From Acidithiobacillus sulfuriphilus (GTDB lineage Bacteria; Pseudomonadota; Gammaproteobacteria; Acidithiobacillales; Acidithiobacillaceae): a DNA stretch of 38,208 nt. The stretch lies in NCBI RefSeq assembly GCF_003721225.1, contig NZ_RIZI01000180.1, positions 1 to 38,208 of the forward strand. Reading direction: 5' to 3'. Shown one piece after another: positions 116-16,983 of the stretch (positions are counted from its first letter, which is position 1; each line of letters starts with the position of its first letter). The notes beneath the pieces were generated by a model that did no database searches, was not told the origin of the DNA, and saw only the letters and a program-made list of their open reading frames with translations. Both the position numbers and the translations under genes were made by a program.

Positions 116-1693
116 ATGCCGCGCGGACCAGCCAAGAAGAAGACCGAGGAGACCACCAGCCAGAGCCTCGAATCCAAGCTCTGGGCCACCGCCGACAAGC
201 TGCGTGGGCATCTGGACGCCGCCGACTACAAGCATGTGGTATTGGGCCTCATTTTCCTGAAGTACATCTCGGACCGCTTTGCCCAACGCCATGCGGAAAT
301 CATCCGGGAAGAGGCGGGGACTTACGCAGCCGAAGACCGCGACGAATACACGGCGGAAGGCGTGTTCTGGGTACCCTTATCGGGCCGCTGGGACATGGTA
401 CAGGCCGCCGCCAAACAGCCGGACATTGGCAAGCGCATCGACGACGCCATGACCGAGATCGAGCGGGAAAACCCGCATCTGAAAAACATCCTGCCCAAAG
501 GCTATGCCCGCCCTACCCTCGACCAACGCCGTCTGGGTGAACTGGTGGACCTCATCGGTACCATCGGATTAGGGACGGCGGAACATCAGGCCCGCGACAC
601 CCTGGGCCGGGTCTATGAATACTTTTTGGGGATGTTCGCCAGCGCGGAAGGCAAGCGGGGTGGTGAGTTCTACACCCCGGCTTCCGTAGTGCGCGTGCTG
701 GTCACCATGCTGGCCCCCTACAAGGGTCGCATCTATGACCCCTGTTGCGGGTCCGGCGGCATGTTCGTCCAGTCTGAAAAGTTCATCGAAGCCCATGGCG
801 GCAAAGTGGGCGACATCAGCGTCTATGGGGAAGAATCCAACCCCAACACCTGGAAGCTGGCCCTCATGAATCTGGCCATTCGCGGCATCGAGGCCGACCT
901 GGGGACGGAAGCGGCGGATACCTTTCACAAGGACCTGCATCCCGATCTGCGGGCGGATTACATCCTTGCCAACCCGCCCTTCAACATTTCCGATTGGGGC
1001 GGCGATCTGCTGCGCGACGACAAACGCTGGCAGTACGGCGCACCACCCACCGGCAACGCCAACTTCGCCTGGGTGCAGCACATGGTCCATCACCTGGCGC
1101 CCTATGGCATTGCCGGCTTTGTGCTGGCCAATGGTTCCATGTCATCGAACACCAGTGGTGAGGGCGAAATCCGCAAGAACCTCATCGAAGCGGATCTGGT
1201 GGACTGTATGGTGGCTATGCCGGGCCAGCTATTTTACAGCACCCAGATACCCGTGTGCCTGTGGTTCCTGGCGAAGAACCGGGATGACGGACGCGGCATG
1301 GCTGGCAAGGAACTCTTTGAGCGGTCAGGCGAAGTGCTGTTCATTGATGCCCGCAACATGGGTTTCATGGCCGACCGCACCCATCGGGAACTGAGCGACG
1401 AGGACATCCAGAAGATCGCCGATACTTACCATAACTGGCGTGGCGACGGTAAAGAGGAATACGAAGACATTCCGGGTTTCTGCAAGGCGGCCAGCCTCGA
1501 TGAAATCCGCAAGAACGGCCACGTCCTGACGCCGGGGCGCTATGTGGGTGCGGCGGCCAAGGATGACGATGACGAGCCCTTTGAAGAAAAGATGGCACGG
1601 TTGACCAAAGACCTATCGGAACAGTTGGCGGAAGGACGGCGGCTGGAAGACGAGATGCGGAAGAATTTTCGGGTGTTGGGGTATGAGTTATGA
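116..1693 (+). CDS. hsdM: Type I restriction-modification DNA methyltransferase subunit HsdM
   Basis: This is the modification subunit of a type I restriction system; with HsdS it methylates adenine in a bipartite target and protects the host from HsdR. The 525-residue protein has the HsdM N-terminal helical domain (about 10-150), the S-adenosylmethionine-binding motif I DPCCGSGG at 208-215 and the catalytic N6-adenine motif NPPF at 286-289, in the order of the family and at normal length. A ribosome-binding site (AAGGAAG) precedes the ATG by four bases. The last 20 or so codons are repeated at 3413-3477, behind a block of toxin-antitoxin genes, so the 3' end was duplicated when cargo entered. 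hsdS and hsdR lie 4.4 and 7.2 kb downstream on the same strand. Function is well supported; whether hsdM and hsdS still share a transcript is unknown. Confidence 0.97.
1626..1693 (+). repeat. Direct repeat copy 1: hsdM 3' end
   Basis: The last about 65 bases of hsdM, encoding [17 protein letters not shown] and the stop, recur at 3413-3477 with only a few substitutions and one missing base. The two copies are direct repeats enclosing the block 1694-3412. Confidence 0.85.
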
Positions 1694-1735
1694 GTGGCCC
1701 CATTGACAACGCAGTGTATCAATACAAAAATCAAT

Positions 1736-2017
1736 ATGCGGCTTGAATGGGACGAGGCCAAGCGGCAAGCTACCCTGGAACATCGGGGTTTGGATTTTGC
1801 CGATTGCAAAGAAATCTTTGCAAATGTGACCTTCGAGTTTCCCGACGACCGTAAGAACTATGGTGAACCCCGGACGATCTGCATCGGATTTCTGAAAGGC
1901 CGTATGGTAGCGGTGGTTTACACTCAGCGGGGGGTTCACCGTCGCATTGTCTCGATGAGGAAGTGCAATGAACGCGAAAAGAAAGCCTACCGTGACCGTC
2001 TGGAAAGACGAGGATGA
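1736..2017 (+). CDS. brnT: BrnT-family toxin (type II toxin-antitoxin)
   Basis: BrnT toxins are small RelE-fold ribonucleases that arrest translation and are held in check by BrnA. The 93-residue product has the family signature: an N-terminal RLEWDEAKRQATLEHRGLDF, a central DDRKNYGEPR, and a C-terminal RIVSMRKCNEREKKAY. I chose the ATG at 1736 because BrnT proteins start at this point; an in-frame GTG at 1694 would add 14 unlikely residues. The antitoxin gene brnA starts inside its 3' end (50-base overlap), the usual toxin-first order for this family. It sits directly behind the hsdM stop, as the first gene of the inserted block. The key charged residues appear intact, so it is probably active. 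Confidence 0.9.
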   Translation: MRLEWDEAKRQATLEHRGLDFADCKEIFANVTFEFPDDRKNYGEPRTICIGFLKGRMVAVVYTQRGVHRRIVSMRKCNEREKKAYRDRLERRG

Positions 2018-2306
2018 GGCCCCAGAGCTGACCGGGGTTGAATTCGATCATCCGCAAGGCCGATGGAAACACGGTGGGGAACCCATTGAAGAAGTTCAGG
2101 GCAAGGCGGCCTTCCGCGAGGCGCTGAAGAAGAAACAGGTCAACATGCTGATCGACGCCGATGTTCTGGAATTTTATCGCCGGAAGGCTGGTGGGCGCGG
2201 CTACCAGACACTCATCAATCGGACCTTGCGCGAATCCATGGAACGGAACGCCCTGCTGGACGCCGTGCGGCAGGTGGTTCGGGAAGAGTTGCACCGTCCC
2301 TCATGA
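1968..2306 (+). CDS. brnA: BrnA-family antitoxin
   Basis: BrnA binds and neutralises BrnT and represses the operon by DNA binding. The 112-residue protein has a variable, charged N-terminus and a C-terminal ribbon-helix-helix-like segment (IDADVLEFYRRKAGGRGYQ then TLINRTLRESME, about residues 62-92) typical of BrnA. It overlaps brnT by 50 bases and its TGA overlaps the ATG of the next small gene (ATGA at 2303-2306), so the chain is translationally coupled. Assignment is firm from the motif plus the BrnT partner. Confidence 0.88.
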   Translation: MNAKRKPTVTVWKDEDEAPELTGVEFDHPQGRWKHGGEPIEEVQGKAAFREALKKKQVNMLIDADVLEFYRRKAGGRGYQTLINRTLRESMERNALLDAVRQVVREELHRPS

Positions 2307-2578
2307 ACGCTATCCGGGGGATGCGGCATGGGCCTACTTGCAGACTGATCAAACTCACCCCGGAAGAGCTGGATGCCTTGAATGAGAGGCAAATCATCGC
2401 CGTGGATGTAGAAGGCGAATATGTGGTGTATCTTCAACGGAATGCGAAATCCCGGGACTGGGTGCAACCCCTGCTTTCGGAATCCGCGCTGGCGGAAGAC
2501 TGGCTAAAACCCGAAGAGGATGCGGCATGGGCCACCTTGCAGCCAGCTAGTCCACCCTCACCCGACTATGCACTGTAA
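2303..2578 (+). CDS. Small antitoxin-like protein with MazE-type acidic tail (possibly chimeric)
   Basis: This 91-residue frame overlaps brnA by four bases and the DUF4258 gene by eleven, so it looks translated in a coupled chain. Its C-terminal about 28 residues (LLSESALAEDWLKPEEDAAW) are nearly identical to the tail of the antitoxin at 4050-4259, which pairs with a MazF toxin. Its first codons contain another short copy of the same tail DNA read in a different frame (GATGCGGCATGGGCCTACTT at about 2320-2340). No MazF-like partner follows directly. It is either an orphan antitoxin or a chimera built by recombination at the repeated tail. The true start is uncertain; the first 15 or so residues look like read-through of the repeat. 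Confidence 0.55.
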   Translation: MNAIRGMRHGPTCRLIKLTPEELDALNERQIIAVDVEGEYVVYLQRNAKSRDWVQPLLSESALAEDWLKPEEDAAWATLQPASPPSPDYAL

Positions 2579-2852
2579 ACAAATCATTCTCAGCCGACAC
2601 GCGGTGCAACGGATGTTTACTCGGGGAATCTCCGTTTCGGAAGTAGAATCTGCCATACAGCAGGGGCAAATGATTGAAGACTATCCGGATGACCACCCTT
2701 ATCCCAGTTGCCTTTTACTGGGTGGATCGCCCGAGAACCCATTGCATGTGGTGATAGCCCTGGATGATGACGAACACCGCTGCATAGTCGTCACCGCCTA
2801 CAGACCATCTCCGGATCAATGGCATTTGGACAACAAAACGAGGAAGCCATGA
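2568..2852 (+). CDS. DUF4258 protein, probable RelE-fold toxin
   Basis: The 94-residue protein (from ATG 2568) begins with the DUF4258 hallmark ILSRHAVQRMFTRGIS and continues with an EDYPDDHPYPSCLLLG strand region and IVVTAYRP near the end. DUF4258 proteins have a RelE-like fold and commonly sit next to a YgiT-type zinc-finger antitoxin, as here: its TGA overlaps the ATG of that gene. An upstream in-frame start at 2520 would overlap the previous gene and adds residues foreign to the family. By family and context it is most likely the toxin of a two-gene toxin-antitoxin module; the activity is inferred. Confidence 0.82.
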   Translation: MHCKQIILSRHAVQRMFTRGISVSEVESAIQQGQMIEDYPDDHPYPSCLLLGGSPENPLHVVIALDDDEHRCIVVTAYRPSPDQWHLDNKTRKP

Positions 2853-3073
2853 AGTGTGTCATCTGTAAACATGGAAATACGGAACCGGGTTACGCCACCG
2901 TTACTTTAGAACGGGGTGATACGGTGCTGGTCATTCGTGATGTACCAGCACAAATCTGTAGCGAGTGTGGAGAATACTATCTCGATACAGCCACTAGCAC
3001 GCACGTCATGGCATTGGGCGAAGAAGCGGTAAAACGCCATGCAGAAGTGGAAGTGCTTCGCTACGTCGCTTAG
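2849..3073 (+). CDS. YgiT-type zinc-finger protein (MqsA-like antitoxin)
   Basis: A 74-residue protein with two CxxC knuckles, C3-x2-C6 and C37-x2-C40, matching the zinc-binding N-terminal domain of MqsA/YgiT antitoxins. The context LVIRDVPAQICSECGEYYLD is characteristic. It lacks the C-terminal HTH domain of full-length MqsA, as is usual for the short YgiT-type proteins paired with DUF4258. The ATG at 2849 overlaps the TGA of that upstream gene, giving a coupled pair. Probable role: neutralising antitoxin. Confidence 0.85.
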   Translation: MKCVICKHGNTEPGYATVTLERGDTVLVIRDVPAQICSECGEYYLDTATSTHVMALGEEAVKRHAEVEVLRYVA

Positions 3074-3086
3074 CTGACAACGCGAA

Positions 3087-3412
3087 ATGATTTGCGCACT
3101 GGATACCGTCATTCCAAGGGCACAATTGGTGGACTTAAACGAGGAGCCTGACTTGAGATCACAATCTGTGACCTCAAGTGCCCATGGCGGGAGAAGGTAC
3201 CATCCCTACGCCTTCACCGAACAGGGCGTGGCCATGCTCTCGGCGGTGCTGCGCAGCGAAACTGCCGTCCAGATCAGCATCCACATCATCAATGCCTTTG
3301 TCGCCATGCGCCGGTTCATGGCCGTCCATGGCGGCCTGCTCCAACGCATGGACTCGCTGGAAAAACGGCAAATCCACCACGAGATCAACACCGACGACCG
3401 CTTCTTGTTGAT
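3087..3412 (+). pseudogene. Truncated ORF6N-domain gene
   Basis: The frame encodes the C-terminal half of an ORF6N (phage KilA-N-associated) domain: SQSVTSSAHGGRRYHPYAF, TEQGVAMLSAVLRSETAVQ and NAFVAMRRF are diagnostic. The N-terminal part of the domain, normally some 60 residues with a LDADLAxLYGV segment, is absent; recognisable similarity begins at about 3135. At about 3413 the frame enters the duplicated hsdM 3' end and stops by chance at 3446. The gene is therefore broken at both ends. Intact relatives (RhuM/ORF6N types) often lie within type I restriction operons, consistent with this site. Confidence 0.8.
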
Positions 3413-3477
3413 TGCGGAAGACGGCGGCTGGAAGACGAGATGCTGAAGAACTTTCGGGTGTTGGGGTATGAACTGTG
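3413..3477 (+). repeat. Direct repeat copy 2: detached hsdM 3' end
   Basis: In one frame this segment encodes [18 protein letters not shown] followed by TGA at 3475-3477, differing by one residue from the HsdM C-terminus at 1626-1693. It lacks the rest of hsdM and follows a truncated ORF6N gene. It marks the right edge of the inserted block. Confidence 0.85.
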
Positions 3478-3541
3478 ATGGGACTCTGTTTGCGGTTTAT
3501 ACCCAATATGATATAGGCTGCCCCATGGCACAATCGCAACG

Positions 3542-3724
3542 TCCTTGCTCTGGGTGGCTTCCGCCAAAAAGGATCTCATGGATATGCCAGAGGACGTGCG
3601 GGATACGTTTGGGTATGCGTTGCATCTGGCGCAAATAGGTGACAAGCATCCCAAGCCGGATATGGACAGGATACGCGAGCGGTTGAAGTGGGCAGAACAA
3701 CACGCCAAGGGGGTGATCGAATGA
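3542..3724 (+). pseudogene. Internally deleted HigB/Gp49-like toxin
   Basis: Read in one frame from about 3542 (SLLWVASAKKDLMDM, PEDVRDTFGYALHLAQIGDK) this matches the first 40 residues of phage-derived Gp49-like (HigB, DUF891) toxins. It then jumps at KHPKPD straight to the family's C-terminal PDMDRIRERLKWAEQHAKG. The central core of about 50 residues (the LKGF...VLHAFQKKS segment that carries the RNase fold) is missing. No good start codon remains. The TGA at 3722-3724 still overlaps the ATG of the antitoxin gene, preserving the original coupling. It is very probably a dead toxin beside a live antitoxin. Confidence 0.8.
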
Positions 3725-4026
3725 ACATCGAATGGGGTGGTGGCAACGTCTATGCGGACATCGGTGTGTCTGATGCTGAAGAAATGCTGCTTAAAGCGCA
3801 ACTGGCTTCCCGTATTGCCGGAATGATTCAGAACAAAGGATTGACACAATCTCAGTCAGCGAAATTACTGGGTATCCCACAACCCAAGTTGTCCCTGATG
3901 CTGCGCGGGCAGTTCCGGGGAATCAGTGAAGTCAAAATGCTGGAATGTCTGGCCCGGTTGGGCCGGGATATTCAGATCGTCATCGGGCCGGAACATGCGG
4001 GGATAGGGAATATCGTGGTGGTATAG
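3721..4026 (+). CDS. XRE-family antitoxin (HigA-like)
   Basis: A 101-residue protein from ATG 3721 with a helix-turn-helix at about 40-75 (LTQSQSAKLLGIPQPKLSLM) and the C-terminal LECLARLGRDIQIVI strand typical of the HigA/HTH_37 partners of Gp49-like toxins. It overlaps the remains of that toxin gene by four bases. With the toxin core deleted, it survives as an orphan antitoxin that could act as a repressor or cross-protect against related toxins such as the pair at 18549-19168. Upstream in-frame starts fall inside the toxin gene and are not needed. Confidence 0.85.
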   Translation: MNIEWGGGNVYADIGVSDAEEMLLKAQLASRIAGMIQNKGLTQSQSAKLLGIPQPKLSLMLRGQFRGISEVKMLECLARLGRDIQIVIGPEHAGIGNIVVV

Positions 4027-4049
4027 ATGCGGAATTCGAGGATTGAGCC

Positions 4050-4259
4050 ATGCTACAGACCATTGAAGTGGAAATTGATGCACAGGGACAGGTGCATCCC
4101 GTGGGGTTGAACAAGCCGTTGCCGGCAGGCCGCGCCTTGCTGACCTTGCTGACGCCGCTTGCCAACGAAGAAGCGCTGCTTTCGGAAGCGGCACTGGCTG
4201 AAGATTGGTTGAAACCCGAAGAGGATGCGGCATGGGCCTACTTGCAGCCGGTCAGGTAG
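4050..4259 (+). CDS. MazE-like antitoxin of MazF at 4232
   Basis: A 69-residue protein: an N-terminal strand region (MLQTIEVEIDAQGQVHPV) as in small antitoxins of MazF/PemK systems, then an acidic tail ending EDWLKPEEDAAWAYLQPVR that would wrap the toxin. The toxin gene starts 28 bases before its stop. The tail sequence is repeated in the gene at 2303-2578. A GAGG lies about eight bases before the ATG. The partner makes the assignment likely, although the N-terminal fold is not a textbook AbrB domain. Confidence 0.75.
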   Translation: MLQTIEVEIDAQGQVHPVGLNKPLPAGRALLTLLTPLANEEALLSEAALAEDWLKPEEDAAWAYLQPVR

Positions 4260-4570
4260 TGGTGCTGCCCTTTTCGTTTTCTGATCTCTCACGAAACAAG
4301 TACCGGCCCGTATTGGTGCTGGCTGATGCGTGTCGTGGCGACTGGATTGCCTGTCAGATCACCAGCAATCCTTATTCCGACCCCCGCGCTCTCGCGCTGA
4401 CGGAACTGGACTTTGCGAACGGCAGACTTGCGCACACCAGCTATGTGCGTCCCGGCAAGCTCTTCACGGCTCACGCGGACTTGATGGAACAGATTGTGGG
4501 CACGGTGAAACCAGACTTTCTTGGCCGGGCACGGGAAGCGGTAATCCAGGTGATTCGGGGGAAGCCATGA
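4232..4570 (+). CDS. MazF/PemK-family mRNA interferase toxin
   Basis: From ATG 4232 the 112-residue protein begins MGLLAAGQVVVLPFSFSDLS and has the PemK/MazF core: NKYRPVLVLAD, WIACQITSN, and YVRPGKLFT followed by the C-terminal helix. This family cleaves single-stranded RNA at short sequences. It overlaps its antitoxin gene upstream by 28 bases and a DUF4926 gene downstream by four (ATGA), a tightly coupled trio. Key residues (the R of KYRPVLVL and the S/T of QITSN) are present, so it is probably functional. The track of in-frame codons back to 4205 lies in the antitoxin gene and is not used. Confidence 0.88.
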   Translation: MGLLAAGQVVVLPFSFSDLSRNKYRPVLVLADACRGDWIACQITSNPYSDPRALALTELDFANGRLAHTSYVRPGKLFTAHADLMEQIVGTVKPDFLGRAREAVIQVIRGKP

Positions 4571-4801: not shown

Positions 4802-5878
4802 ATGAAATACGTTGAAACAATAAAGCAAGCGTTGATCTTCGTACAGTGTATACCTATACCTATCACGCAATATTCCAAATTTAAAAAACGTGTAACATCA
4901 GCCGTGATTTCATCTTTATTATTAGCGCCAATCGCATCAGCAGACATCAATCAATCAGGACCGAATATTTACATTTGCGAGTTTACCAATGCGTTAATAT
5001 TGATTCAGTTTAACGATATATCAGGAAAGCTTGTTGGTAATTATAGAGATACAACTTTAGTGAGGGGCGGAACAAGTGAGCATACCCAAGAACAATCTTT
5101 CACAGGGGAAGAAAATAACGGGTCTATTAGTATAAGTTTTCAATATGGCAATACTTGGATCGGCAAGGTTAGAGATGGACGGCTAGATTTTGAAATACCG
5201 AACTTTATAGTTGGCGAACCCCTTTCTTCAGTTGTATTCAGATCGGCTACTGTGGCGACGTATAATCAGTTGCAGTTCCACATGACAAGTGTTATAAACC
5301 ACAATATAATGGTGGAAAAGATGCGCGCCAATCTAGTGGCAACAAACAAAAGAAGAAATGATATATCAGAGCGCATTGTTAATGATTACCGAAACTTGCA
5401 GCAGGTGGAAGATATAAACGTGGTAACACCGGAAACAATACAGAAAAAATACATCAAGCAGATAGAGTCGGTAAAAGAGCTTATAAATGAACAAATAGCC
5501 CTAAAGGGCGGGCGGAATTTTTATGGCAAGGACTACAAAATTGACTCACTTAATTATGAGGTAAACAGTGATGCCTATAATGTTAACAGCATTAATTATG
5601 ACCTTATAGAACTTTATGGCAATGAAAAAAACGCCGAGAAGGCAATTAGCGACAATATTTCATCAATTAGTAAGGATTGCCAACTTATGATGGATATCGG
5701 GTTAAGCCCACTAGAACAGCGTGCAAATACTGTCTGTGCAAATGAGAATCATTTGTTTGCCGTTGCTAGGAATGTTTCCGCTAAAATAAACAAAACAATA
5801 TCCAGCACTAAAAAGATTCAAATATTATATAACCAGGATATGAAGGCTTTACAGGAAAAATCTGCATCAATAAGGTGA
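4802..5878 (+). CDS. AT-rich exported protein of unknown function
   Basis: A 358-residue protein I do not recognise. A basic stretch KFKKR (about residues 26-30) precedes the hydrophobic VTSAVISSLLLAPIASADI (31-49), a signal peptide with a likely cut after ASA. The mature part is beta-rich at first (about 55-150, many N, S and T), then mainly helical with long K/E/N-rich stretches (180-355) that could form a coiled coil. The 28 residues before the signal core are unusually long, so the start may be later. The base composition is far more AT-rich than the toxin-antitoxin genes before it and hsdS after it, indicating recent transfer. An export signal is unexpected inside a restriction-modification locus. 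Confidence 0.7.
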   Translation: MKYVETIKQALIFVQCIPIPITQYSKFKKRVTSAVISSLLLAPIASADINQSGPNIYICEFTNALILIQFNDISGKLVGNYRDTTLVRGGTSEHTQEQSFTGEENNGSISISFQYGNTWIGKVRDGRLDFEIPNFIVGEPLSSVVFRSATVATYNQLQFHMTSVINHNIMVEKMRANLVATNKRRNDISERIVNDYRNLQQVEDINVVTPETIQKKYIKQIESVKELINEQIALKGGRNFYGKDYKIDSLNYEVNSDAYNVNSINYDLIELYGNEKNAEKAISDNISSISKDCQLMMDIGLSPLEQRANTVCANENHLFAVARNVSAKINKTISSTKKIQILYNQDMKALQEKSASIR

Positions 5879-6101
5879 GTCAATTACACCCGTTGGATAT
5901 TTCCGCACCGGATGTGCCGCATGTGAGAGTGATGTAAATTTGGCAAAAAATGAAAACAAATATTTCTTCGGCAAACGCTGTCACCAAGATATCGTCACCC
6001 CGACAGAGGAATTCCTCACGGTATTGCGACAGGGCAAGCTGGTATTACGAGATTCATCGGCGACCGAGGCCAATCTGAGGGGGCTTGGGTATGGGGGGTG
6101 A
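5874..6101 (+). pseudogene. Unrecognised 3' gene remnant before hsdS
   Basis: A frame open from 5874 to the TGA at 6099-6101 encodes VGYFRTGCAACESDVNLA, then KYFFGKRCHQDIVTPTEEFL and TVLRQGKLVLRDSSATEANL. The only start available is a TTG at 5940 (53 residues). The stop lies inside the start of hsdS (ATG 6091), so hsdS may be translationally coupled to it. The codon pattern looks coding but the N-terminus is missing, as if cut by the AT-rich gene upstream. Family not recognised. Confidence 0.4.
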
Positions 6102-7428
6102 GTGGCGAGAGGCCCGACTGGGGCAACTTGGCGAGGTAAATAGAGGCCGATCGCGCCATAGACCCCGCGATGCAGCACATCTGTATGGTGGCGCATATCC
6201 ATTTATCCAAACTGGTGATATCAAGGCATCGGGTGGGCGGATCACAAGTCATTCCCAAACCTATAGCGAAGCAGGACTAGCTCAAAGCAGGCTCTGGCCT
6301 GAAGGCACAATGGTTATCACCATTGCAGCCAACATCGCTGAAACCGCAATACTCACATATCCGGCGTGCTTTCCAGATAGTGTAGTTGGCTTTATTGCCG
6401 ATAAGCAGCGAGGTGACGTGAGATTCGTCGAGTACCTTTTCCGCCATTTACGTCGGCAGATTCAACACGAAAACGTTGGAACGGGCAGTGTTCAAGATAA
6501 CATCAATCTGCAAACTCTTGCTCGGCTGACGCTTAGAGTCCCCGAACCCCACGAACAACGCCGCATCGCCCACGTCCTGGGCACCCTCGACGACAAGATC
6601 GAGAACAACCGCAAGACGGCGAAGACCCTGGAAGCCATGGCGCAGGCCATCTTCAAGTCGTGGTTCGTGGACTTCGACCCGGTACGCGCCAAGATGGCCG
6701 GGGAATCGCGGGAAAGCATCTGCAAGCGGCTGAAGCTCACGCCCGAGATTCTGGACCTGTTCCCGGATAGGCTGGTGGACTCGGAATTGGGGGAGATTCC
6801 TGAGGGGTGGGGGGTTGGCACGTTTGGTGATTTTGCTGGCATTGTGGGCGGAAGCACCCCAAGCACGACTAATCCTGAATATTGGTTCTCTGGAACTCAC
6901 AGTTGGGCCACACCAAAGGATCTGTCAAACTTGACGATGCCCGTCTTGCTTGCCACGGAAAACAAAATCACGGATGCAGGACTTCAACAGATAAGTTCGC
7001 GATTATTACCTGTGGGGACCGTTTTGCTCTCTTCTCGCGCGCCCATAGGATATCTTGCCATTACCGAAATACCCGTGGCAATCAATCAAGGATTTATTGC
7101 CCTTAGACCGAATAGAGACAATATGGCAGTATTTTTGTTGTTCCTCATGAAAAATAAATTAGAAGAAATTATAAGCAGAGCTAATGGCTCGACATTCCTT
7201 GAGATCAGCAAGTCCAAATTCAGGCCGATTCCGGTGTTGGTGCCCCCAGAAAATGTTTTAGCGGCTTTTAATGTGCTAGCGAACCCATTATACAGGATGA
7301 CCGTCCTTGCAGAGAGAAGCACAATCATACTTAGTAAGCAACGTGACACGCTTTTACCCAAACTTGTTTCAGGTGAAATCCGCATACCGGAAGATGAAGA
7401 GCCTATGACCTGGAATCACCAACAATGA
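6091..7428 (+). CDS. hsdS: Type I restriction-modification specificity subunit HsdS
   Basis: HsdS sets the DNA target of the HsdM/HsdR complex. The 445-residue protein has two target-recognition domains (about 1-150 and 245-400), each followed by a conserved helical spacer. The central one reads PEPHEQRRIAHVLGTLDDKI and KSWFVDFDPVRAKM (151-205); the C-terminal one reads LSKQRDTLLPKLVSGEIRI (about 410-430). Domain 2 opens with LGEIPEGWGVGTFGDFAGIV, the normal family start. The ATG at 6091 was chosen over a TTG at 6085. The two recognition domains are more AT-rich than the spacer, as expected when such domains are exchanged between strains. The next gene starts in the stop codon. Confidence 0.95.
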   Translation: MGGEWREARLGQLGEVNRGRSRHRPRDAAHLYGGAYPFIQTGDIKASGGRITSHSQTYSEAGLAQSRLWPEGTMVITIAANIAETAILTYPACFPDSVVGFIADKQRGDVRFVEYLFRHLRRQIQHENVGTGSVQDNINLQTLARLTLRVPEPHEQRRIAHVLGTLDDKIENNRKTAKTLEAMAQAIFKSWFVDFDPVRAKMAGESRESICKRLKLTPEILDLFPDRLVDSELGEIPEGWGVGTFGDFAGIVGGSTPSTTNPEYWFSGTHSWATPKDLSNLTMPVLLATENKITDAGLQQISSRLLPVGTVLLSSRAPIGYLAITEIPVAINQGFIALRPNRDNMAVFLLFLMKNKLEEIISRANGSTFLEISKSKFRPIPVLVPPENVLAAFNVLANPLYRMTVLAERSTIILSKQRDTLLPKLVSGEIRIPEDEEPMTWNHQQ

Positions 7429-8195
7429 AAACCGAAGACATTGAGAAGGATCTGTTATCAATATTTCATAGCATCAAACCATACACCCCATTTTTTGTTG
7501 GTCTTCAGCTATTGTCATCAAAATTAGAGGGCATAGAGTCCATCAAAAGAAACAAGCTCTTGTCTTTTCTGCTTTTGAAAAAGTATTCGCTTGTTACCTC
7601 TGTTGCCATATCTGCGGCATTCCTATACTGGATCAGAAAATCAACAATTGACGATGTAAAGGAAGAAGCGAAAAAATTTACGTTTATCGAGAAAAAGAAA
7701 ACGATAGAATATCCTTTTGTCGTTGAAACCATAGACGGCTCTCGCAAACATTTCTTTCATGTTAACAAGATAGCAGAATTCATTGGTTCTCTTTATGTTG
7801 GAAAAACCTCTGACCTGGCCGCAAGATCTTTCGTTGCCGCTAAGCGCACTGTAGTGCTGGGGTGGGTAGACGTTTATGCGTTGCGGACTGCCGAATTCAT
7901 AGCTATTAGATCATTAGAGCAGTTACTGCATGACCGTTACCCAGATGCTCGCTGCGTAAAAAATAAAAAAATTACAGGAATTGGCATAAGCAAAGTTTCA
8001 CTTTTCGAAGATGATGCAACGACTGCTTACCTAAATGGTAAATTTGGTACATGCTTCAATATCGGAAAAACCATTGAGGAGATTATAGAAATTAGGGATA
8101 ATTTTGCCCACCGTGATGACCCTGGTTTTGAATATTCACCACTGAGGCTTGCCCCGTTTCAACTCGTTTCCGCATTGCTGGAATACAGAGATTAA
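7425..8195 (+). CDS. Unknown AT-rich protein with HEPN-like motif
   Basis: A 256-residue protein whose ATG overlaps the hsdS stop (ATGA). A hydrophobic segment (about 50-70, VTSAVISAAFLYWI-like) could insert in a membrane or be a buried helix. Towards the C-terminus are two helices of HEPN type: AEFIAIRSLEQLLHDRYPD and then EIRDNFAHRDDPGFE, where R224-DNFA-H229 fits the R-x4-H catalytic motif of HEPN ribonucleases. HEPN proteins are common effectors in restriction, abortive-infection and toxin-antitoxin loci. The coupling to hsdS and placement before hsdR suggest an accessory effector, but the fold is inferred from a short motif only. Strongly AT-rich, unlike hsdS and hsdR, hence transferred cargo. 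Confidence 0.65.
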   Translation: MKTEDIEKDLLSIFHSIKPYTPFFVGLQLLSSKLEGIESIKRNKLLSFLLLKKYSLVTSVAISAAFLYWIRKSTIDDVKEEAKKFTFIEKKKTIEYPFVVETIDGSRKHFFHVNKIAEFIGSLYVGKTSDLAARSFVAAKRTVVLGWVDVYALRTAEFIAIRSLEQLLHDRYPDARCVKNKKITGIGISKVSLFEDDATTAYLNGKFGTCFNIGKTIEEIIEIRDNFAHRDDPGFEYSPLRLAPFQLVSALLEYRD

Positions 8196-8200
8196 AAACA

Positions 8201-8317
8201 ATGACCAACCCCCTCAACGAATCCACCATCGAGCACCACGCCATCGCCCCATTCAAGGAACTTGGCTACGCCTTTCCTTCTGAAATACTTGTGGACTGCC
8301 AAGGGACGCTGGAATGA
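8201..8317 (+). pseudogene. Detached duplicate of the hsdR 5' end
   Basis: This 39-residue frame starts [20 protein letters not shown], almost identical to HsdR at 8944 ([20 protein letters not shown]), and loses similarity at about 8275. Its TGA overlaps the ATG of the next gene (8314). It is the left member of a direct repeat pair enclosing the gene 8314-8931, and may now serve as a coupled leader peptide for it. Confidence 0.85.
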
Positions 8318-8931
8318 ATTTGATCGTGCCTTTCGGTTCATCAATTCTTGGAGCCATTATTGGTGGTGTGTTTCTTCTTGGTGGGCAGCAATGGAATAAT
8401 AGGCTAACGTGCCAGAATAATGCAAAAGTTGTTTTTACTGCATTTCATAGAGAAGCATTATGTCTGGACGCTGTAATTCATAACCAGCTTCTGAAAGGTG
8501 GTGTGCCAACTATAGATGTGGTGCAGATTGATGTAAACACCGACATTTATCACGATGCTGAAAAATTTTTGGTCGCATGCATGGATGTTACAACTATATA
8601 CTTTATATACAGCAAAGTCGCAGACATTGATTCAAAGAAAAAAAGCATAATATATTCTTCTACTGGCCCAGATATAGGCGTGAGCTATGAATATTTACGT
8701 TCAATACAGAGTAGCCTGATAGAAATCCTAGATGTTCTTAAACTCTACGCTTACAAGAAATCTATGTTTTTTTATCCAAAGCACTATACGGAAATAAACC
8801 GCATTGAGCAAGCAATTCAGAATCTCAAAGGTACTCTCAGTAGTTTTACTGATCGTATTGGCAGCTTTCGGTTTATCCTTACGCATCCAAGACGCGCCAT
8901 GAAAGATTTACTGCCAGATCCGCGATTATAG
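8314..8931 (+). CDS. Unknown membrane-anchored AT-rich protein
   Basis: A 205-residue protein with one N-terminal membrane segment (VPFGSSILGAIIGGVFLLGG, residues 4-23) and a soluble helical body, including SSLIEILDVLKLYAYKKSMF and INRIEQAIQNLKGTLSS. The family is not recognised. It is inserted between two copies of the hsdR start and its ATG overlaps the short remnant frame upstream. AT-rich composition contrasts with the flanking hsd genes. The layout (single N-terminal helix with cytoplasmic helical domain) is compatible with a membrane-tethered defence effector or immunity protein, but nothing in the sequence proves this. Confidence 0.6.
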   Translation: MNLIVPFGSSILGAIIGGVFLLGGQQWNNRLTCQNNAKVVFTAFHREALCLDAVIHNQLLKGGVPTIDVVQIDVNTDIYHDAEKFLVACMDVTTIYFIYSKVADIDSKKKSIIYSSTGPDIGVSYEYLRSIQSSLIEILDVLKLYAYKKSMFFYPKHYTEINRIEQAIQNLKGTLSSFTDRIGSFRFILTHPRRAMKDLLPDPRL

Positions 8932-8943
8932 ATTGGACAAGCG

Positions 8944-11900
8944 ATGACTAACCTCAACGAATCCACCATCGAGCACCACGCCATCGCCCTCTTCCGCGAA
9001 TTGGGCTACACCTACGCCTTTGGCCCCGACATCGGCCAGGGCGGCGACCACCAGGAACGCGAAGACTACGGCGAAACCCTTTTACTGGAACGCCTACGCA
9101 TTGCCATCCACACGCTCAATCCCGCCGTCCCCAAAGACATCCGCGACGAAGCCTTGCGCATGGTGCGGGATGCCGCCCACGGTGGTCTCGTCACCCAGAA
9201 TAACCTCATCCAGCGCATGCTGGTGGAAGGCGTGCGGGTGGCGCATCAGGTGGACGGCGAGGAACGTGGCATCATCGTCCGCCTGATCGACTACGACCAT
9301 CCCGAAAAGAACGATTTTCTGGTGGTCAACCAGTACACGGTCATTCACAACAGGGTGAATCGCCGCGCGGATCTGGTGGTTTTCGTGAACGGCCTGCCCC
9401 TGGGCCTCTTTGAACTGAAAAACATGGCGGACGCCAACGCCACCGTGCAAAAGGCATGGAACCAGTTGCAGACCTACCAGGCGGATATCCCGAACCTCAT
9501 GGCCTACAACGCCGTGCTGGTCATCAGCGATGGCCTCAAGGCCGCCATGGGCTGCCTGGATGCCCCTTACGAACGCTTTCTGCCCTGGAAGACCATCGAC
9601 GGTCAGGAACTCATGGACCGGGGGGATGACCCCTTACGTTTCCTGATTCACGGTGTTTTTGAACCCAGTCGCTTTCTGGACCTGCTGCGGTACTTCATCG
9701 CCTTCGAAGACGATGGCCGCAAACTCAGCAAGAAGATCGCCGCCTATCATCAGTTCCACGCCGCCCAGAAGGCCCTGCTGACCACTCTGGCAGCGGCAGG
9801 CATCGGTGGCGACCGCCGGGGTGGTGTGGTCTGGCATACCCAGGGGTCCGGCAAGAGCCTCACCATGCTGTTCTTCGCGGGCATGCTCATCCAGCATCCG
9901 GCGCTGGAAAACCCCACCATCGTCATGCTCACCGACCGCACGAACCTGGACACCCAGTTGTTCGATACCTTTGCGGCGGGCAGCCAGCTTTTACGGCAAG
10001 ACCCGCAACAGGCCGAAAGCGTCAGTGACATCCGCGAACTGCTGCAAAGGGCTTCTGGTGGGGTGATCTTCAGCACCATCCAGAAATTCCAGAAAGACCG
10101 CCACGAACCCCAGGGCAAGCACCCGGTATTGTCCGACCGGAAGAACATCATCGTCATGGTGGACGAGGCCCAGCGCAGCCAGTACGAGATTCTGGATGGT
10201 TACGCCGCCAATCTGCGGGCGGCATTGCCCAACGCGACCTTCGTGGCCTTCACGGGCACACCGCTGGAACTGGATGACCGGGATACGCGGGTGGTGTTCG
10301 GCGATTACATTGACATCTACGACATCCAACGGGCCGTGGAAGATGGCGCCACCGTCCCGATTTATTACGAAAGCCGCCTGGTGCGCCTCAACCTGCCGGA
10401 AGACCAGCGGCCCCTCATCGACAGCACCTTTGAGGAAATCACCGAAGACGACGAGCAGGAAAACAAGGAACGTCTGAAAACCCGCTGGGCGCAACTGGAA
10501 GCCCTGGTTGGCGCCCCCAAGCGAGTGGAACAGATTGCCGCGGATATGCTGGACCATTGGGAAAAGCGCAAGAGCATTCTGTCCGGCAAGGCCATGATCG
10601 TCGCCATGAGCCGCCGCATCGCCGTGGAACTCTATGATGCCATCATCCAGTTGCGTCCCGACTGGCGCGGTGACGACGACACGCAAGGCCGCATCAAGGT
10701 GGTCATGACGGGTTCCGCCAGCGACCCCATCGAATGGAAGCCGCACATCCGCAGCAAGGCGGGCAACGAGGCCATTGCCGACCGTCTCAAAGACCCCGAA
10801 GACCCGCTGGAGATCGTCATCGTGCGGGACATGTGGCTGACCGGTTTCGACGCCCCGGCGCTCAACACCCTCTATGTGGACAAGCCCATGCGTGGGCACA
10901 CGCTCATGCAGGCCATCGCCCGGGTCAACCGGGTATTCACCAACAAGTCCGGCGGACTGGTGGTGGACTACATTGGCATCGCCCAGGACCTGAAAAACGC
11001 CATCGCCACCTACACCCGTTCCGGTGGCAAGGGCAATCCGGCGGAAACCGTGCAGGAAGCCATCAAGGTGCTGCTGGAAAAGCTGGATATTTGCCGCAGT
11101 ATTTTCCACGGCTGTGACTATCAGGATTATCTGACCGGCGACGGGTCGGAAAAGGTGGCCACCCTGCGCAAGGCCACCGAATTCATTCTGTCCCAGGAAC
11201 TCACGGAAGACGGCATCAAGCGCCGCTTCCGCAATGCCACATCGGGGCTCAGAAAGGCCGCCACGCTGGCGGCGGGCGACGATGTGGTGGAACGTTGCCG
11301 CACCGAGATCATCTTTTTCCTGAGTGTCCGCAACACCCTGGACAAGACCAGTGACGCGGAATCCCTGGTGGAAGAGCAGGAATACGCCATCCGCCAGTTG
11401 ATCGACCAGTCCATCGCCCCGGAAGGCGTAGTGGACCTGTATGCGGTGGCGGGACTGCCCAAAAGCGAAATATCCCTGCTGTCCGATGAATTCATCCATC
11501 AGATCGAGGCCATGCCCGAAAAGAATCTGGCGCTGGAAATGCTGCGCCGCCTGTTGCAGGACAAGGTGCGCAAGGAAGGCAAAGGCAACCTGATCCAGAG
11601 CAAAGCCTTCTCGGAACGGCTGGATGAAGCCCTGCGCAAATACCACAACCGCTCGGTGGATACCGTCGAGGTCATGCAGGAACTCATCGAACTGGCGAAA
11701 GCATTGCAGGCGCTGGATCAACGCCACGCGGAACTGGGCCTCAGCAAGGACGAAGCGGCCTTTTACGACGCCCTGGCGACCAACGATTCCGCCGTACAGG
11801 CCATGGGCGACGACGCCCTGAAAATGATCGCCAAGGAAGTGGCCGATACCGTGCGCCAGAACACGCGCATCGACTGGTCCATCCGCGAACAGGCGCGCGC

Positions 11901-12012
11901 CCATTTGCGGCGCATGGTGAAACGGGTACTGAAACGGCATGGATATCCACCGGACATGCAGGAAGGGGCGGTGAATATGGTCATTGAACAGGCTGAGGGG
12001 TTGGTTCAATAA
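8944..12012 (+). CDS. hsdR: Type I restriction endonuclease subunit HsdR
   Basis: HsdR is the translocating and cutting subunit. The 1022-residue protein has the N-terminal nuclease core D143...E157-x-K159 ([20 protein letters not shown]). Helicase motifs follow: Walker A GSGKS at 301-305, motif II D407-E-A-Q (in place of the more usual DEAH), motif III FTGTPL, and a C-terminal RecA lobe with [20 protein letters not shown] and QAIARVNR. The C-terminal helical region reaches normal length. The 5' end is duplicated at 8201. ATG 8944 follows a weak AAGCG site. All key residues are intact, so with hsdM and hsdS the system is potentially functional. Confidence 0.97.
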
Positions 12013-12039: not shown

Positions 12040-13795
12040 CTATCTCTGATCGCCGACGATTTGAGAATAACCATACCGTGTCGCCACAACCTTATCCTCT
12101 AAAACACCAAGTCCGCAATAAAAACACTTTCCAACCTCGCAAAAAGAATCTTTGCGCCCTAAATCTGAAGCTTTCTTGAACCATAAAAATGATTTTTCAT
12201 ATTCCTTGTTCTCGCGATAAATATAACCCAATCTATTCATGGCTGGCGTATGGCCCCCCTGTGCGGCTTTTCTGTAAAACTCTAAGGCACTGTCAGCATC
12301 GAAATTTTTGATTAGTTTTAGATCATGAAATCTTGCCATATAGTAATAGAGAAAAGGATACTTTCGTTGCTCAAATGCATTTTTAAAGTAGTGGTACGCT
12401 AAAGATACATTGTGATCTGCCCAGGCACGTTCACCATAAACAATTTCTATGTCTGGATGAATAAGATCTATACATCTTGGTAAAGCGTGCCCAGATTTTG
12501 CCAAGAACGCAAAATAATCGTATGCATAATGCTCGAATAAGAACGTGTCAATGTCCGAATTCTTCGATAGTTTATCATAAATATCAGATATTTTTTCAGG
12601 ATCACTTATTATTTTTGCGCAGGAAAGAGCGCAATCAATATAAATGACTTCCGTTTTATAATGTGAATCCTGATTCCAATCACCATATGTGCCAAAGACA
12701 CTATCAATAAGCTCATATGCGTCCACTAGCTTGCCTTCGCACAGCGCCAGTAGCGCTCTTATTGCGATATTTTTATCTTCTTTGAAGATGCTAAAAAAAC
12801 GGGTCAGGAAATCAATCCTAGATTTACATGGTTCACCAATAATATTCTCTTCATTGCATGTTAATGTTCTAGATGGTAAGCATGATATGCAAGATGAGAT
12901 ACATTTATCGTTAAGCTCGTCCTCCTCTCCTGCGATTGAAAAGAATTGCCCTATTTCGTCAGCCAGATAGAAAGACTCTGATATAACGGATTTAAAGACA
13001 TCATTATTTCTAATGGTGGATTTGCTAGTCTGGTAAAGTTCCATGAGAAGCTGGGCGTATCTAGTTCTATCGATGTCATGATAATACATCTCTTGAATTA
13101 TAATATCGAGAAGTTCCGGGCTGTTCTTATTTATTGCTATTTTGCAGAACATTTCAAAATATGAGAGACTGCCGCTATCAGCGTGCTCTTCAGAATCGTT
13201 GAATAATATGAAAGTTAACTTGATATGGGTAAGGGCTAGACGCATTTCGTCCGCTGTCATGAGATTAAACAACATTTCATAATGTTTCAATGTATTATAA
13301 TAAATATCGAACGCGCCGATTTCTGTGCAATCCCTTGAGAACAAGGTTTGGACACAGCCTTGGTCTAGACTCATCTCATCGGATAACGCCAGCAATATTT
13401 CGACAAGCGAGTCCAGAGTCTTTGGTTCTAACGCTTCTATTTTATTAATAAATCCTGACTCTATCGCCAATAATTTAAAATCGTGAACCAATAGAGATAG
13501 ACGTATATCTGGATCATTCGCAGTTCCACACCTGATCTTGTCTTCTATATAAAGGTATGCCAGCGCATAGTTTCTATCCAAAAGGTTATTTCTATAGCTT
13601 ATTATATCCGCACCTTTTCTCGATAGTAGCAGGTGGGATATCAGACACGCGGAAATTCCAATAAGCAGGTCAATATGGTCATCTAATCGTTCGTGGTCTG
13701 CGATTCTGGTTAGAAAAAAATGACTCTAACGAAATGAGGTATTCTTTTAATATTCTAGTTTGTTGCTCGTGTTCATTTGTTTCTATCGAGTCCAT
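12040..13795 (-). pseudogene. Sel1/TPR-like repeat protein, frameshifted near its start
   Basis: The intact frame (12040-13581, 513 residues from ATG) ends with Sel1-like repeats: DADSALEFYRKAAQGGHTPA, MNRLGYIYRENKEYEKSFLW and FEVGKCFYCGLGVLEDK-like residues. The rest is helical and not recognised. Coding-like sequence continues upstream in the same frame (LDDHIDLLIGISACLISHLL...SYRNNLLDRNYA) to a run of seven A (+ strand 13714-13720). Beyond it, shifted by one base, lies an ATG at 13795 starting MDSIETNEHEQQTRILKEYL. Correcting the run by one base would give a protein of about 584 residues. This is either a real frameshift, a phase-variable site or a read error. AT-rich, convergent with hsdR. 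Sel1 proteins often mediate protein-protein contacts; the role here is unknown. Confidence 0.65.
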
Positions 13796-15148: not shown

Positions 15149-15514
15149 TTAGCCCGTATTCACTGCACAAATTCCCGCCACGGCAAGACGGTCCCGGACC
15201 GCATCGATGACACGTCGGCGATCCGGCAAGGTCAGACGGCCTATGCGGTCCGCCATGTCCATCTCTACGGTGGCGATTTTTGCTGTGCGCACCACAGACG
15301 CCGCCGACAGGCCGACACCCGCGAGATCGTCGATTTCAACATCTCCAGACCACCCCCTGTTTTCCGCGCTGGTGATCATGAGCACCCACAGCAGGCGCGG
15401 GGTCCCCGTGCCGTTGTGGATGGCGAGGACCAGGGCGGGGCGGTACTGATGAACTGGCCGGTTGGTATAGGGGAACGGTAGCCTTACGACATCCCAAACT
15501 TCACAACTGCCCAT
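15149..15514 (-). CDS. MazF/PemK-family toxin
   Basis: From ATG 15514 the 121-residue protein starts MGSCEVWDVVRLPFPYTNRP and has the PemK core HQYRPALVLA, LWVLMITSAENRGW, and the late SVVRTAKIATVEMD. These match the MazF RNA-binding strands and the S/T-K-I-x-T segment. The antitoxin gene overlaps its start by 14 bases, the standard antitoxin-first order. A frame extending to 15571 would run through the antitoxin gene and is not used. It would cleave cellular RNA when the antitoxin is lost, helping to keep the element in the chromosome. Confidence 0.88.
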   Translation of the reverse strand: MGSCEVWDVVRLPFPYTNRPVHQYRPALVLAIHNGTGTPRLLWVLMITSAENRGWSGDVEIDDLAGVGLSAASVVRTAKIATVEMDMADRIGRLTLPDRRRVIDAVRDRLAVAGICAVNTG

Positions 15515-15716
15515 AGGCCCGCCGGTCCGCTTCGCTATCCCATTCGGCAAACAGCACGAAGGGGTCTTCATCGGCTTCTTGAGTCGCTTTACTCAGAAGG
15601 ACCCGGCCATCCTCGATGCTGTAGGCGAGCACATCCCCCTCCCGAAGATGTAATGCGATCCGCACCGGCTGCGGAATGGTCGTTTGGGCTTTGCTGGTCA
15701 ATTTGCTGGTAATCAT
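15501..15716 (-). CDS. AbrB/SpoVT-type antitoxin (MazE/PrlF-like)
   Basis: A 71-residue protein starting MITSKLTSKAQTTIPQPVRI, the swapped-hairpin AbrB DNA-binding motif, with ALHLREGDVLAYSIEDGRVL following and an acidic tail (EADEDPFVLFAEWDSEADRR) for toxin binding. I prefer the ATG at 15716, with GGGGA about nine bases upstream, over one at 15725 that lacks spacing. Its stop lies inside the toxin gene. It probably represses its own operon. Confidence 0.87.
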   Translation of the reverse strand: MITSKLTSKAQTTIPQPVRIALHLREGDVLAYSIEDGRVLLSKATQEADEDPFVLFAEWDSEADRRAYGQL

Positions 15717-15806: not shown

Positions 15807-16811
15807 CTATGACCCTCTCACCGCATCGACCAGCGTCTTCCCCGAAATATGCGTGTACCGCTTCATCATCTGCGTCGATTTATGCCCCGTAATGGCCTGC
15901 ACGGTCATCATGGGGATAGCCTTCTCGCAGAACCGGCTCGTGGCCTCGTGGCGCAGATCGTGGAAGGTCAGACCCTCGATGCCGGCTTTCTTGAGGGCCT
16001 TGAAATAGCTGGCCCGCATGCCGTCATTGGTGTACCGCCAGACCTTCCCGTCTTTTCCCGTGGCCCGTTGCTGCTGGCGTTGTAAAGCCGCTTCCGCACG
16101 CACCGACAAGGGAACGATCCGCGCCGTGCCGTTCTTGGTGTCCGGCAGGTAGCAGGTGTGGTCCAGCCAGTGTACGTGCCGCCATTCCAGACCCAGGATC
16201 TCGCTCTGGCGCATGGCCGTCTCGATGGCGACGATAACGATGTCCGCCAGTTCCGGGTTCATGGCGCTGGCCGCCGTCAAAAGACGTTCTTCTTCATCGC
16301 CTATCAGCCGCCGGTCACGGCCCTGGGGCAACCGTGGTTTTCTCACCAGTTCCACCGGGTTGATGAGGTCCACCATGCCCCATTCCTTGCGGGCGATGTT
16401 GTAGAGATGCGAGAGGACGGCCAGGTACAGTCGAATGGAATTGGCGGAAAGCCTTGTCTGCCACTGGCGGATCATGCCGGACAGCATTTGCCCGTCGATC
16501 CTCGCCAGCGCCATCTCCCCATAGTCCGCTTTCAGCCTTTTGATGATGCCCATATCCCGCCGCTGGGTGGTGGGCTTTTTACCGGGCAGAATGTCCAGGG
16601 CGTAGCGGTCCAGGGCATGGGCCAAGGCGTAGTCCTGATCCCGCAGCCGCTGGACGACCCGTTCCGGGGTCTGCTCTGAGAGCGTCTTTTCCTGTTGCGC
16701 GGCCCAGAAATTGGCTTCCGCTTTGGTGTCGAAGGTGCCGGACAGGGCAGGGTATCCCGTGCGCCGGATCTGGACCCGCCAGTAGTTGCCCCGCTTTTGT
16801 ATGCTTGCCAT
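15807..16811 (-). CDS. Tyrosine recombinase/integrase
   Basis: A 334-residue integrase (from ATG 16811, MASIQKRGNYWRVQIRRTGY) with the N-terminal arm-binding domain, a SAM-like core-binding domain (about 55-155) and a complete catalytic domain. R201 (AMRQSE), H284-DL-R287, H310 (GHKS) and the nucleophile Y319 (RYTHIS) are all present. It resembles the shufflon-type/phage integrases. A start at 16850 would add 13 residues. It is adjacent to the tRNA-Ile(CAU) fragment, and the intervening 130 bases hold two TGCACCAAT repeats (about 16929 and 16941) that may be binding sites. It is probably the recombinase of the element to its left. Confidence 0.93.
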   Translation of the reverse strand: MASIQKRGNYWRVQIRRTGYPALSGTFDTKAEANFWAAQQEKTLSEQTPERVVQRLRDQDYALAHALDRYALDILPGKKPTTQRRDMGIIKRLKADYGEMALARIDGQMLSGMIRQWQTRLSANSIRLYLAVLSHLYNIARKEWGMVDLINPVELVRKPRLPQGRDRRLIGDEEERLLTAASAMNPELADIVIVAIETAMRQSEILGLEWRHVHWLDHTCYLPDTKNGTARIVPLSVRAEAALQRQQQRATGKDGKVWRYTNDGMRASYFKALKKAGIEGLTFHDLRHEATSRFCEKAIPMMTVQAITGHKSTQMMKRYTHISGKTLVDAVRGS

Positions 16812-16983
16812 AAATCCGCCTTCTGATGTGGTGTAATCCACCTGCACCATAGGCCCCGCATTGTGCCATTTTCAAAAGCGAACCGGCACACTACAAGCCA
16901 TCGTGTCCGGCCTTTTTCGGTTGTTACTGCACCAATCATTGCACCAATTAGCGTTTTCTGATGTTTTAAGTGTTTGATTTATA

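Follow-up and report, generated by a model that had tools for sequence, protein, structure and literature searches.

What does a small gene do that begins inside the stop codon of a type I restriction specificity gene? We address this question for a stretch of Acidithiobacillus sulfuriphilus DNA (contig NZ_RIZI01000180.1, positions 1 to 38,208; hereafter the window, 38,208 nucleotides (nt) in length), in which a 256-residue protein, here called X, is encoded directly downstream of hsdS. An earlier reading made without database searches (the sequence-only reading) had proposed X as a HEPN-like RNase that serves as a backup suicide function when restriction is blocked. With modest confidence, we favor a reading of X as an endoribonuclease of the HEPN fold, with a single N-terminal helix that probably tethers it to the inner membrane, co-produced with the specificity and restriction subunits of the type I enzyme. 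The position of X, its overlapping start, the order hsdS-X-hsdR in a second genome (G007), an invariant R-x4-H motif and a HEPN-like predicted fold come directly out of the computations described below.

The reading frame of X is uninterrupted, and its ATG overlaps the hsdS stop codon by 4 nt (ATGA, 7425–7428), just as the sequence-only reading had stated. Pfam identifies the neighbors as type I hsd genes, which upholds its placement of the locus; it had been silent on a second gene at 8314–8931 and on a remnant of hsdR at 8201–8275, both discussed below. X is found in two of the 29 genomes of the family Acidithiobacillaceae, the window's own and G007 (about 42–43% identity). The G007 genes run hsdM, hsdS, X, hsdR, and X shares 13 nt with hsdS at one end and 4 nt with hsdR at the other. 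A survey of hsdS-HEPN neighbors, which had been recommended earlier, therefore finds the linkage kept in the only other genome with X, and a sister protein occupies the same slot of a third.

The motif R224-DNFA-H229 is encoded where it had been reported (R224 at 8094–8096, H229 at 8109–8111). A search of 5.8 billion proteins returned 8 relatives of X and a profile search 9, and both relatives with a named organism are from Acidithiobacillus. In an 11-row alignment of the X family the invariant columns include R224, F227, H229, R230 and E165, and the conservation of R224 and H229 in 11/11 rows leaves the proposed active site standing. The residue after R224 is D in nine rows, E in one and H in one, and so is polar, as is usual in HEPN proteins; section 6 of PMC3710099 describes R-x4-6-H as conserved in the superfamily, the R being followed by a polar residue, and names the R, the H and an acidic residue for active HEPN RNases. 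The acidic residue typically lies in E-x3-[KR]; the invariant E165 corresponds to a D in the sister protein, and the [KR] position is H169 in X, which is neither K nor R. A second R-x4-H in X (R107) is common to one relative only.

Sequence searches match X to no curated family above its cut-off. X has no Pfam match up to E 10, and no curated HEPN model is matched above its cut-off, the best X-family match (0.021, PF18735) being sub-threshold. PDB sequence searches gave no matches or chance-level ones, and NCBIfam matched only single members. Sub-threshold matches of two relatives to a clostridial translocation domain (0.024 and 0.0014), which begin in the N-terminal helices, are taken as composition effects. 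No relatives were found in viral contigs by a pattern-limited scan or in plasmids by tblastn; a pattern-limited scan of an 84,980-species contig collection found none either, but it also missed the G007 copy, so absence from that collection is unproven. Class-wide profile scans of 369 genomes each gave no true new relatives: L044 was rejected as a short stretch with stops, and L046 as lying within an open reading frame (ORF) of another kind, presumably that of a cation-efflux protein. In searches of an open-licence library, no title or opening of an abstract described the X family. Borderline matches of about 0.05–0.2 have led to new HEPN families (section 5, PMC3710099).

The predicted structure supports the assignment of X as a HEPN protein. 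In an AlphaFold model built from 29 rows, the predicted local distance difference test score (pLDDT) exceeds 85 in 14 of the 17 ten-residue blocks of residues 91–256, and averages 79 in the block that holds the motif (residues 221–230). When this model was compared with 371 aligned chains using VIA-align, the seven top entries were HEPN proteins, and the model has a HEPN-like helical bundle of the size usual for the superfamily (about 100–120 residues). The comparison with HEPN folds suggested by the sequence-only reading thus points to HEPN structures as the best match of the C-terminal domain. A low-confidence model without the sister rows again favored HEPN toxins, and the earliest model (10 rows, pLDDT 48) is superseded by the 29-row one. 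Foldseek searches of the PDB with the model gave E-values all above 1, and a search of viral structures returned nothing at E 0.001.

The sister protein (247 residues, G001) has 21 database relatives, of which 17 were aligned (18 rows with the query); P0010, a 100% match, was dropped, as were three short sequences, P0020, P0026 and P0030. Its R-x4-H is of the RNVTGH type, with R, N, T and H invariant in 18/18 rows. The X and sister profiles align over 206 columns (E 7e-4 in one comparison; hhalign probability 26.5%), and both hhalign and MAFFT pair R224 with the sister R. As occupants of one slot, the two proteins are taken here to be homologues. The corresponding scans with the sister gave one locus, in Acidithiobacillus concretivorus ATCC 19703.

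A membrane helix in X is probable, though borderline. Columns 54–70 have a mean hydropathy of 1.77 over 11 rows; AlphaFold confidence is low here (block means 47–56), and the sister protein has a helix at the corresponding place. The PADLOC model Mem_02, which describes a protein with two transmembrane segments, matches 6 of the 29 rows (best 8.1e-5) and X itself over residues 45–94 (E 0.033); PADLOC otherwise gave single weak matches only. When the maximum hydropathy over 19 residues is compared with a cut-off of 1.6, which was our choice, 7 of 11 slot proteins of the family lie above it vs 1 of 18 from other families of the class, counts that take homologues singly, so that the rows are not independent. 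Most slot proteins of the family therefore likely have a membrane helix. The sequence-only reading mentioned neither this possible helix nor the exchangeable effector slot described below.

Several observations weigh against our interpretation. Some R-x4-H is present in 23% of 20,000 shuffles of X (4.6% when confined to about the last 50 residues), and because it is so frequent, the weight of the motif comes from its conservation, its position and the predicted fold, not from the motif itself. Both hhalign and MAFFT align H229 to a sister histidine four residues past the one in R-x4-H, so it is the motif, and no alignment, that matches the histidines; the MAFFT alignment of X and sister rows, with this offset, underlies the 29-row model. 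The hydropathy maxima of X (1.47) and of the G007 copy (1.48) lie under the 1.6 line. Were X an unrelated helical protein, with an incidental R-x4-H and no HEPN ancestry, the chance frequency of the motif, the curated families below cut-off, the Foldseek E-values and a profile comparison with Abi_C (PF14355) at E 0.37 would all be expected; yet two models from different alignments both favor HEPN structures, and R-x4-H is invariant in two families at 16–22% mutual identity, and we consider this explanation very improbable.

The neighborhood of X was compared across the family, where 19 of 29 genomes have HsdR matches. Nine loci (the window's among them) encode a full-length HsdR of ≥ 84% identity and are treated as orthologous; all nine slots were read, and the counts leave out the genomes with partial HsdR (G008, G012, G023, and G013, which has 580 bases only, L039). 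An extra ORF lies between hsdS and hsdR in 9/9 loci: HEPN-like in three (X in the window and G007, the sister in G001), PIN in two and unnamed in four. The PIN proteins, both of 295 residues with a C-terminal hydrophobic segment and coupled to hsdS, are found in G002 (L033:9690–10577, PF13470 1.4e-8) and G010 (L038:594–1481, minus strand), and are 78% identical. The unnamed proteins have 213 (G005), 237 (G004) and 262 residues (G003), and G011 has a 455-residue ORF, presumably a transposase, together with a 128-residue ORF and a short HsdS ORF. Two unnamed slot proteins (L034 and L035) are similar only near their hydrophobic segments at the N-terminus (31% over 70 columns), which looks like an anchor common to different effectors. 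More distant family loci (HsdR 50–53%) differ in slot content: in G026 (L040:3189–6556) the space from hsdS to hsdR holds two overlapping genes, one for a Piwi-domain (Argonaute-like) protein and one for a DpnII/MboI-type nuclease, and G019 has an ORF that reads by eye as RhuM/Fic-like, plus others. Linkage of HEPN-like slot genes to restriction–modification is supported by three loci.

This variety also fits a different account, in which X is an active HEPN RNase acting alone, and the gap between hsdS and hsdR is a tolerant landing site, filled by recombination through the conserved hsd flanks, with no control by restriction. Slot contents vary between close genomes, and between the window and G007 HsdM (95%) and HsdR (93%) are nearly identical while HsdS (35%) and X are dissimilar, so that replacement or divergence has affected the operon's middle and spared its ends. 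The window itself has two slot genes and the remnant of an hsdR start. In the class, 57 of 369 genomes have an HsdR match (E 1e-100), and outside the family we read 29 loci together with short flanks, recognizing hsdS within nine of them; Pfam was run on 18 slot proteins, omitting 11 loci (contig edge, no gene, or unclassified). The place upstream of hsdR holds Abi_C in five, RhuM and/or Fic in six, and TIR, FRG, DUF4357, DUF4411 and DUF4268 in one each, with two lacking a Pfam match. An hsdS was recognized at two of the five Abi_C loci (L052, L063), and the TIR-domain gene (L064:428–1498) lies directly 5′ of hsdR; L053 and L066 are gene-free upstream of hsdR. A mere landing site does not require coupling as tight as we observe, however: the slot gene overlaps hsdS or starts ≤ 3 nt from it at 7 of 8 loci (G004 is the exception, and G011 is set aside), a slot ORF overlaps hsdR at 8 of 9 (the window is the exception), and PrrC demonstrates that enzyme control can evolve at such a place. 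We regard the landing-site account as unlikely but serious.

It is improbable, in our view, that X instead lacks catalytic activity and serves as a HEPN-like anchor or assembly factor for the restriction complex at the membrane. The possible membrane helix next to a helical domain, and the overlaps with hsdS and, in G007, hsdR would suit such a role, but X keeps invariant the R, the H and the acidic residue that the cited part of PMC3710099 gives for active HEPN RNases. A fixed assembly role is also unlikely because orthologous slots hold PIN-domain or unnamed proteins.

Returning to X as a proposed membrane-tethered RNase of the operon, traces of recombination suggest how the window departed from the G007 arrangement. 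The DNA of the hsdR remnant matches the hsdR starts of G004 (95% over 61 bp) and G007 (92% over 65 bp) slightly better than that of the window's own hsdR (87% over 62 bp), a possible trace of the arrival of a slot gene that is suggestive only because the stretch is short. On the simplest reading, X once stood directly upstream of hsdR as in G007, and the later arrival of the 205-residue gene brought in a new 5′ end of hsdR. Positions 3414–3471 carry a 59-bp copy (95%) of the end of hsdM at its 3′ side, and the interval between hsdM and hsdS (1694–4570), dense in genes of toxin–antitoxin type (BrnT/BrnA, DUF4258, MqsA-like below cut-off, HTH_37, PemK-like), may have grown by like insertions.

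Several known groups resemble X. Abi_C proteins, which we take to be HEPN-like, have 225–254 residues and lie immediately upstream of hsdR in 5 of the 29 gammaproteobacterial loci, with hydropathy maxima (1.26–1.41) just under that of X; they conserve R-x7-H whereas X has R-x4-H, no profile match to X was found, and the profile comparison is that given above. HEPN_RiboL-PSP (PF18735) has the same motif form, R-x-x-[hydrophobic]-A-H, and 3 of 10 X-family rows match it below threshold, but its profile aligns with that of X over just 22 columns (E 0.013). The sister profile does not align its motif with that of HEPN_RiboL-PSP, and the combined profile gives E 0.18 over 16 columns; both results count against a simple assignment to this family; the alignment used here holds 7 of 14 matches, and for L084 and L085 the wrong ORF was picked.

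PrrC is the textbook suicide RNase that guards a restriction enzyme. The cited passages describe it as a latent HEPN RNase encoded within a type IC operon, which the enzyme keeps silent and T4 Stp frees (PMC3874165, PMC2610378, PMC3710099), with an N-terminal ABC ATPase and the triad Arg-X3-Glu...His (PMC2610378). Like PrrC, X is a predicted HEPN gene in a type I hsd operon (hsdS-X in the window, hsdS-X-hsdR in G007), but it is smaller, with only about 90 residues preceding the confident part of the model, has no recognized ATPase domain and has a possible membrane helix; the lack of an ATPase led us to reject X as a member of PrrC. The rlo genes of Campylobacter jejuni are likewise extra genes within type I loci, and rloC, rloE and rloG are described as coding for RloC-type proteins (PMC2610378, citing Miller 2005); RloC differs in its Rad50-like ATPase and zinc hook, neither of which Pfam recognizes in X. 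Section 15 of PMC3710099 describes three membrane-associated HEPN groups, in one of which an active HEPN domain at the C-terminus comes after a single membrane helix, a layout like that predicted for X; that section mentions no linkage to restriction–modification for these groups. The same paper links at least 16 HEPN clades to restriction–modification systems and proposes multi-pronged defenses by analogy with PrrC, and a review terms PrrC and PARIS RM guardian systems (PMC12707154). What looks new is the X family, together with its probable tether to the membrane; the kind of arrangement is known.

By analogy with PrrC, X would sit at the membrane facing the cytoplasm and stay silent as long as the restriction complex is intact; once a phage had blocked or escaped restriction, X would act as a catalytic RNase, cut RNA and stop growth. 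Silencing by the restriction enzyme and the suicide role are drawn from analogy only, and the trigger, blocked restriction, follows PrrC (PMC3874165, PMC2610378, PMC12707154) and the general proposal in PMC3710099. A broader idea, that type I loci of the Acidithiobacillaceae keep a dedicated, exchangeable slot for membrane-anchored RNases of unrelated folds (HEPN, PIN), is tentative and somewhat doubtful. If true, the slot would hold membrane-tethered restriction guardians that answer blocked restriction, or DNA entering through the membrane, with RNA cleavage, in contrast to PrrC and its ATPase control. A HEPN protein this small, lacking an ATPase and probably tethered to the membrane, that alternates with PIN-domain proteins at a comparable place in orthologous operons would suggest that the guardian strategy arose more than once, and X would be a simpler protein in which the sensing of blocked restriction becomes testable.

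Table 1. Features of the hsd region and of gene X (window coordinates).
Feature	Coordinates	Strand	Basis
hsdM, type I methyltransferase subunit	116..1693	+	PF02384 3.3e-108, PF12161 4.7e-24 (Pfam)
hsdS, specificity subunit	6085..7428	+	PF01420 1.7e-38, two stretches; TTG start according to the ORF finder
Gene X, putative membrane-anchored HEPN protein, 256 residues	7425..8195	+	ORF list, family alignment, structure model
X residues 54–70, possible short membrane helix	7584..7634	+	17 consecutive nearly uncharged columns
X residues 97–121, predicted beta hairpin and helix N-terminal to the HEPN-like domain	7713..7787	+	AlphaFold, block means 86–92
X residues 127–256, HEPN-like helical domain	7803..8192	+	Top seven VIA-align matches all HEPN
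R224-DNFA-H229, predicted RNase active-site motif	8094..8111	+	R and H invariant, 11/11 rows
Remnant of hsdR 5′ end, directly 3′ of X	8201..8275	+	80% to HsdR residues 1–24 (tblastn)
Second slot gene, 205 residues, strong N-terminal hydrophobic segment	8314..8931	+	No Pfam match
hsdR, type I restriction subunit	8944..12012	+	PF11867, PF18766, PF04313

Around these features, a 358-residue ORF upstream of hsdS (4802–5878) matches no family above cut-off, and a 513-residue protein with sub-threshold Sel1/TPR matches is encoded on the strand opposite to hsdR (12040–13581, minus). A PemK-like gene additional to that of the hsdM–hsdS interval (15149–15571, minus) and a phage-type integrase gene (15807–16850, minus) lie downstream of the hsd region.
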